DNA of 64,000 nucleotides. Origin: Nitrospira sp. Its GTDB lineage: Bacteria; Nitrospirota; Nitrospiria; Nitrospirales; Nitrospiraceae. Numbering within the stretch: the first letter of the stretch is position 1; every line of letters starts with the position of its first letter. Below are positions 48,117 to 52,032 of this stretch, piece after piece. Under the pieces are notes generated by a model. The model saw only the letters and a list, made by a program, of their open reading frames with translations, made no database searches and had not been told where the DNA came from. The stretch spans positions 558,001-622,000 of the forward strand of contig JARFXR010000001.1 of the NCBI GenBank assembly GCA_029194535.1. The letters run 5' to 3'. The translations under genes and the position numbers were made by a program.

Positions 48117-48296
48117 ATGAAAGGCGCTCACGAACATACGCACGAACATACTCATCTACACACGCATGGTGCGGCCGGGTGGCATACCCATGCGCATCAG
48201 CATCAACATGCCCATGAACATAGCCACGGCGAACAGGGCGAGCACGATCACGACCACCAGAGCGACCACGGTGTCCACGATCATCGGCATGCCTGA
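48117..48296 (+). CDS. Small histidine-rich (metal-binding) protein
   Basis: A 59-residue protein with 22 histidines, many as HXH pairs (HEHTHEHTHLHTH near the N terminus; HDHDH further on). It has no signal peptide and no cysteine. Such Hpn- or HypB-like His-rich proteins bind Ni, Zn or Cu ions, and this one is probably a cytoplasmic metal store or sink. GGAGGGG precedes the ATG and an extended -10 box lies 39 bases upstream. It is too short for ordinary gene-length cut-offs and easily missed. The neighbouring cytochrome group could need a metal supply, a speculation. Confidence 0.7.
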   Translation: MKGAHEHTHEHTHLHTHGAAGWHTHAHQHQHAHEHSHGEQGEHDHDHQSDHGVHDHRHA

Positions 48297-51147: not shown

Positions 51148-51453
51148 ATGAAGGTCTCAAGCGTTTGGAAGCGCAACACCACAAGGAAAAAGAAAAACCG
51201 GTCGACGTTTAGACCGAAGATTCGGTGGGAATTGCTGGGGTTGTCCGACCCCGATGTGATCGAACCCACTGCGATCGACACGATTAGAAAAACGGTGTCA
51301 TCGCTGGCCAGTCAAGGTCTTGGAGAGAGCACGAAATCAAGGTCCAGAGAGCTGGCGACAAACGGGCGTGGGAATCGTGAGTCCGGCGGGAAAAGAGTCA
51401 GACGCCGTGATGCAATCGGGTCAGGGGTGAACACGCAAAGACCGCGCCAGTAG
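51148..51453 (+). CDS. Possible basic small protein
   Basis: A 101-residue, Lys/Arg-rich frame (MKVSSVWKRNTTRKKKNRST, then WELLGLSDPDVIEPTAIDTI and a long basic tail). Codon use looks coding in the central part. The ribosome site AAGGA is weak. It ends 27 bases before the AUC-start gene, in the same direction. It overlaps an alternative frame ending at 51212. Confidence 0.4.
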   Translation: MKVSSVWKRNTTRKKKNRSTFRPKIRWELLGLSDPDVIEPTAIDTIRKTVSSLASQGLGESTKSRSRELATNGRGNRESGGKRVRRRDAIGSGVNTQRPRQ

Positions 51454-51480
51454 TAGGATTCTCTCTCTAAGGAGGACGCC

Positions 51481-51669
51481 ATCGGACGAGCAGGCAAGAC
51501 TACACTCGCAAAGCGCGACCGGGAAAAGGCATTGCAGCGGCAACGCCAAGAAAAGGAGGCAAAGCGCGCGCTTCGCAAGGCTGAAAAAGCTTCGCGCATT
51601 CCAGGCCCGGAAGGCGAAGATCCAGATTTGCAGGGACTCCGATGGGGGCCTCAGCCCCCGATGGACTGA
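51481..51669 (+). CDS. Small coiled-coil protein with apparent AUC start
   Basis: A 62-residue protein: a basic, Lys/Arg/Gln-rich helix (AKRDREKALQRQRQEKEAKR) followed by a Pro/Gly-rich acidic end (PGPEGEDPDL). An ideal AAGGAGG (51469-51475) lies five bases before the ATC at 51481. No ATG, GTG or TTG occurs in frame between the stop at 51454-51456 and this ATC. The first possible canonical start inside the frame, the TTG at codon 16, lies too far from the ribosome site. The composition resembles small conserved basic coiled-coil proteins of bacteria whose function is unknown. The alternative is a mutated start or sequencing error. Confidence 0.6.
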   Translation: MGRAGKTTLAKRDREKALQRQRQEKEAKRALRKAEKASRIPGPEGEDPDLQGLRWGPQPPMD

Positions 51670-51708: not shown

Positions 51709-52032
51709 TTAGGTTCCACGCACGAAGCGATCGGCCGAAAGTTCATCCCGTAGCCAGCCAGTCACGATGCGGCGATAATCGATGTTTTGCTTCAGTATGA
51801 GGACTACGCCATCTGTATCCGTCAGAACGAGCAATTCCGCCTCCGCGACGAGCAGCCGAGCTGAATCGCCTGTGTTGATACGGTATTGAGTCCGGCCATC
51901 CGGATTTCTGGCCGCTCCCACGATGAATTCAGTCAATCCGTCTACCACACCCTCCTGTCCTCCCTCGGCAAGGCGAACTTTCGTGCCATCGGGAATTCGC
52001 ATCCACTTCTTGCCCGCGTTCAGGTTCGTCAT
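51709..52032 (-). CDS. Hypothetical beta-rich protein
   Basis: A 107-residue soluble protein with an SH3-like pattern (MRIPDGTKVRLAEGGQEGVV, then RTQYRINTGDSARLLVAEAE). It has no recognised family and lacks signals and membrane helices. AAAGGA lies 13 bases upstream of the ATG at 52032. It is 268 bases from the radical SAM gene in the same direction. Confidence 0.65.
   Translation of the reverse strand: MTNLNAGKKWMRIPDGTKVRLAEGGQEGVVDGLTEFIVGAARNPDGRTQYRINTGDSARLLVAEAELLVLTDTDGVVLILKQNIDYRRIVTGWLRDELSADRFVRGT

Follow-up and report, generated by a model that had tools for sequence, protein, structure and literature searches.

To our knowledge, very few bacterial genes besides infC hold a start codon other than AUG, GUG, or UUG by selection. 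infC is autoregulated by its product, IF3, and has an AUH start (AUA, AUC, or AUU) behind a strong Shine-Dalgarno (SD) sequence. In Escherichia coli, a second gene with such a start, pcnB (AUU), occurs in the same genome as infC. IF3 discriminates against starts outside ATG, GTG, and TTG (PMC5472188), and weak third-base pairs are excluded by IF3 in vitro (PMC10158994). In Streptomyces, the GTC start of sigR is repressed by IF3, overproduced or mutant IF3 alters SigR levels, and weak starts set the stoichiometry in sigR-rsrA (PMC5472188). In Staphylococcus aureus, cvfC1 (AUU) and ccpN (AUA) have conserved starts with an extended SD, seen by Ribo-Ret and reporters, and give ~10% of AUG output (poor medium) (PMC13009471).

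We examined a comparable locus in the window, the whole 64,000-nucleotide stretch analyzed here from a contig of Nitrospira sp. It contains a gene for a small basic protein (62 aa plus stop, 51481..51669, + strand). Comparison of homologous sequences established that the gene is real and conserved, and that its only credible start is an AUC codon behind a near-perfect SD. Like infC, the small gene combines an AUH start with a strong SD, and AUC is likewise the start codon of infC in this genome. Its product is not IF3, however, so control by IF3 would be exerted in trans, and the AUH start of infC is far more widespread, being phylum-wide here. As with pcnB, infC is joined in its genome by another gene with an AUH start, though the pcnB product and the small protein are unrelated. 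The small gene shares with sigR a conserved non-canonical start in a gene other than infC, a genome in which infC starts with ATC, and a small operon. It differs in that sigR has a GTC start, encodes a sigma factor, and has a demonstrated IF3 response, whereas the gene described here has an AUC start, encodes an uncharacterized protein, and is known by sequence. With cvfC1 and ccpN it has in common a small or regulatory product, an AUH start, an extended SD, and group-wide conservation, and cvfC1 (61 aa) is almost the same size as the small protein. In contrast, cvfC1 is a putative zinc-finger protein from an unrelated phylum, whereas the small protein is a predicted basic helix, and the staphylococcal starts come from Ribo-Ret and reporters, whereas ours comes from comparison only. 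On this comparative evidence, the small gene adds to the known class of conserved non-canonical start codons. Gene callers limited to ATG, GTG, and TTG would miss it or misplace its start.

Start site of the small gene

The SD sequence AAGGAGG (51469..51475, +) stands 5 nt ahead of the AUC start codon (51481..51483, +), separated from it by the spacer ACGCC, and the frame runs for 62 codons to a TGA at 51667-51669. The earlier note had placed AAGGAGG five bases before the ATC, and this was borne out both by the window sequence and by the recurrence of the spacing in homologues. The gene coordinate it gave, 51469-51669, was correct at the stop end, though 51469 is the first base of the SD and the start codon lies at 51481. 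Upstream, the frame is closed by a TAG at 51454-51456, in tandem with a TAG at 51451-51453. The codons between this stop and the ATC read GAT TCT CTC TCT AAG GAG GAC GCC, confirming the claim that neither ATG, GTG, nor TTG lies between them; the earliest canonical codon inside the frame is a TTG at codon 18 (51532). An SD match as long as AAGGAGG was found for ~3% of called genes (45/1361, in 1.6 Mb of the genome). The small gene is present as a single copy in the source genome, and no conserved RNA structure was predicted around its AUC start.

The same arrangement was seen in homologues with ATC, ATT, or ATA at this codon, referred to as AUH copies (n = 81 here and 79 in other counts, as two loci were added and duplicates were removed slightly differently). 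SD spacing was 5 nt in 77 of these 81 copies, and an SD match of at least 7 nt was present in 61. In 72 of 81, there was no in-frame canonical codon upstream, and 11 contained no ATG, GTG, or TTG anywhere from stop to stop; a canonical start cannot account for the conserved N-terminus of the small protein in the AUH copies. An 18-row alignment showed no conservation upstream of the SD, and the GGAGG and the AT of the start codon were invariant. Protein conservation opens at codon 2, right after the ATC, and the most conserved residues stand directly after it. To find ATC, SD, and 5-nt spacing together in dozens of diverged homologues, with unconserved sequence 5′ of the SD, is more than chance would be expected to produce.

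Codon choice pointed to the same position. Codons 2-4 are almost all A-ending, and mixed codons are used for the same residues further on: among small-gene homologues, Gly2 was encoded by GGA in 38/39 cases versus 30/70 for Gly5, and Ala4 by GCA in 28/29 versus 20/71 for Ala10. A bias toward A-ending early codons is typical just 3′ of a start codon. Elsewhere in the gene, conserved residues are encoded with varying synonymous third positions, which indicates that the frame is under protein selection.

Start codons across Nitrospirales and in infC

Nitrospirales is the order of the main nitrite-oxidizing and comammox bacteria. Homologues of the small protein were found in 166 of the 196 Nitrospirales genomes searched, including 7/7 genomes of the genus group, and 12 loci were present in public genome contigs. 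The ATC codon and its ribosome site were conserved across species. Among distinct copies read at the same codon, 75 had ATC, 3 ATA, 1 ATT, 18 ATG, and 2 GTG. The ATA variants (L106, L107, and L108) all belonged to family f4 and the ATT variant (L090) to family f2. Canonical starts, ATG or GTG, occurred in outgroups, in sister family f3, and in a few lineages of the gene's own family, f1, in which g4 had GTG and g7, g8, g13, g17, and g18 had ATG. A few homologues, namely a deltaproteobacterial relative and divergent paralogues, had ATG at shifted positions. The earlier note had raised the prospect of homologues starting at an upstream ATG; what the comparison returned was 79 distinct copies that keep ATC, ATT, or ATA at the codon itself. 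Collectively, these alignments indicate that AUC, or rarely AUA or AUU, is kept at the start of the small gene across Nitrospirales. The ATG starts of outgroups and f3 suggest an ancestral ATG that later gave way to AUH, on a tree whose resolution is not firm. One genome (G111) carried three copies of the gene (L082, L110, and L111), two with ATC and one with ATG, all with the same kind of SD.

The comparison with infC that had been drawn for this gene held in this organism, where infC begins ATC GTT CCC AAA, preceded by GAGAGGTG. The infC start was ATC in all loci read from f1, f2, and f4, ATG in the f3 loci read, and ATC in class outgroups; in remoter members of the phylum, AUH-type codons predominated there. 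For genomes in which both genes were read, the small gene/infC start pairs in f1 were ATC/ATC in 38, ATG/ATC in 5, and GTG/ATC in 3 genomes. In f2 they were ATC/ATC in 5 and ATT/ATC in 1, in f4 ATA/ATC in 3, in f3 ATG/ATG in 11, and in the outgroup ATG/ATC in 8 genomes. An AUH small gene never occurred with an ATG infC, though the tree has a single change in infC, and independent pairs are too few for significance. The small gene changed between AUH and other starts 6 times on a quick IF3 tree, with 2 of these changes forced by well-supported branches. The ATG shared by infC and the small gene in f3 is one phylogenetic event and gives no independent proof of co-regulation. Since f1 lineages with an ATG or GTG small gene keep an ATC infC, one start codon does not strictly follow the other. 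With the switch of infC from ATC to ATG, IF3 autoregulation via the start codon would be lost in f3. The f3 infC loci (L054, L055, L057, L058, L065, L078, and others) were also observed to have a distinct N-terminus, MSRP.../MTRP..., with no obvious SD.

Possible control by IF3 and other accounts of the weak start

We consider it probable that translation of this gene truly begins at AUC and is held down by IF3, as in infC, Streptomyces sigR, and staphylococcal ccpN and cvfC1. The initiator fMet-tRNA (anticodon CAU) would read AUC with a third-position mismatch and, from established biology, the protein would begin with Met. The strong SD would recruit the 30S subunit to the AUC, and IF3 would usually reject the mismatched codon. 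Output would then lie well below the AUG level and rise when there is little free IF3 per 30S subunit. The likely purpose would be to hold a small basic helical protein at a low, IF3-linked level relative to its ATG-started neighbor or target. As infC of the same genome has an AUC start, a change in IF3 should shift the small gene and infC the same way. The small-gene start falls outside ATG, GTG, and TTG, as expected of IF3-repressed genes, with the discrimination by IF3 taken from the literature. That IF3 actually controls the small gene is what we infer from the general behavior of IF3 and from the precedents (PMC5472188, PMC13009471). Because some f1 lineages and class outgroups combine a canonical small-gene start with an ATC infC, the brake would be dispensable in some lineages. 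The natural AUC, AUA, AUU, GTG, and ATG versions offer a ready comparison for asking what maintains a weak start and whether IF3 controls genes beyond its own. A further suggestion, which we regard as doubtful, is that the small protein may be a ribosome- or RNA-binding factor and that, in Nitrospirales, its gene and infC together may form the center of a small IF3 regulon. If so, infC and the small gene would come on together whenever 30S subunits outrun IF3, and slow-growing nitrite oxidizers would gain a sensor that works in translation, independently of any transcription factor.

Several of the other accounts involve the conserved, uncharacterized upstream gene, up103 (51148..51453, +; about 101 aa, ATG start), which ends in TAG TAG 27 nt 5′ of the AUC. 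It was found 5′ of the small gene in 60/79 AUH copies and in 13/39 others, mostly 18-175 nt from the start codon and in varying frames. Given this distribution, up103 may be an operon partner, probably so in most f1 genomes, but the AUC start does not depend on it. One possibility, on balance unlikely, is that the AUC provides a constitutive low set-point that does not respond physiologically to changes in IF3, fixing the ratio to an operon partner or target. The same sequence evidence would fit it as fits an IF3-dependent brake, as would the ATG-started up103 in the 60 AUH copies. It also has precedents in cvfC1, for which the medium had no effect on an output of ~10% of AUG (PMC13009471), and in the stoichiometry set by weak starts in sigR-rsrA (PMC5472188). 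However, IF3 sensitivity of an AUC start is expected from biochemistry anyway, and because no up103 was detected with 19 of the AUH copies, a fixed ratio to up103 is not the general reason for the weak start.

Drift without function, in which a strong SD tolerates AUC and the codon is inherited with no selection and sometimes reverts, would explain why ATG or GTG appears in several f1 lineages and why about 6 start-state changes fall on the IF3 tree. We nevertheless think it quite improbable, as AUC is found in 75 distinct copies though ATG is one substitution away, synonymous third positions vary freely in the rest of the gene, and the SD is unusually strong. Termination-reinitiation, with ribosomes that finish up103 restarting at the nearby AUC and codon weakness playing a minor part, appears less probable again. 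It draws on the closeness of the up103 stop to the AUC, 27 nt in the window and 18-119 nt in most AUH copies, yet the distance and frame of up103 vary widely, up103 is not detectable in the 19 copies, and a strong SD belonging to the small gene itself is present in almost all copies. An artifact or another start is scarcely credible and has nothing in its favor except the unusual codon: the sequencing correction to ATG envisaged in the earlier note failed against dozens of independent assemblies that agree on the start, homologues rule out an upstream ATG or internal start (internal canonical codons are scattered in position or absent, and the best-conserved residues directly follow the AUC), and readthrough or frameshift from up103 is ruled out by the differing frames and distances and by the absence of up103 from some copies.

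AUH starts elsewhere, the protein, and its neighbors

We surveyed AUH starts in 1.6 Mb (40%) of the genome, in which about 1361 genes were called. SD-preceded ATC, ATT, or ATA codons before gene starts or in intergenic frames showed no excess over other codons in this 1.6 Mb, and general use of AUC starts in this genome is not supported. infC was recovered as the positive control. Most AUH candidates were searched in five relatives, where infC and the small gene were the conserved ones; the query covered 2642 of the 3443 prepared residues, ending before the final ATT candidate and the intergenic ATA set, and the search has low sensitivity for short N-terminal extensions. Other conserved candidates, where inspected, were antisense or repeat-like, including one that lies antisense to a reading frame for a probable membrane transporter. 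An ortholog scan of two genomes (G000 versus G003) gave 25 pairs, too small a set. The small gene had a codon-usage score of 0.01 per codon; a score that misses this gene will not recover every gene of such a kind. ARAGORN returned no tRNA with a GAU anticodon that could serve as an AUC-reading initiator among the best 30 of 42 tRNA loci or in the 1.6 Mb, a weak result as ordinary tRNA-Ile was also missed. Our literature search found no paper on such starts in Nitrospira.

The small protein had no convincing match to Pfam or NCBIfam models and no solved structural relative, the best being a PDB chain at E 0.62. The earlier note had described a convincing coiled coil; this was half right, in that AlphaFold2 predicted a helix at residues 9-38 with moderate confidence (pLDDT 74), and the prediction is of one helix. 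The C-terminal motif GEDPDLxGLxWGPQ is conserved and acidic.

Downstream, a conserved convergent gene of 107 aa (51709..52032, - strand) has homologues near many copies of the small gene and, as far as is known, lies outside the proposed mechanism. Neither it nor up103 matched a Pfam family. Elsewhere in the window, at 48117-48296 (+), we also note a histidine-rich frame of 59 aa (HEHTHEHTHLHTHGAAG...), which is possibly metal-binding.
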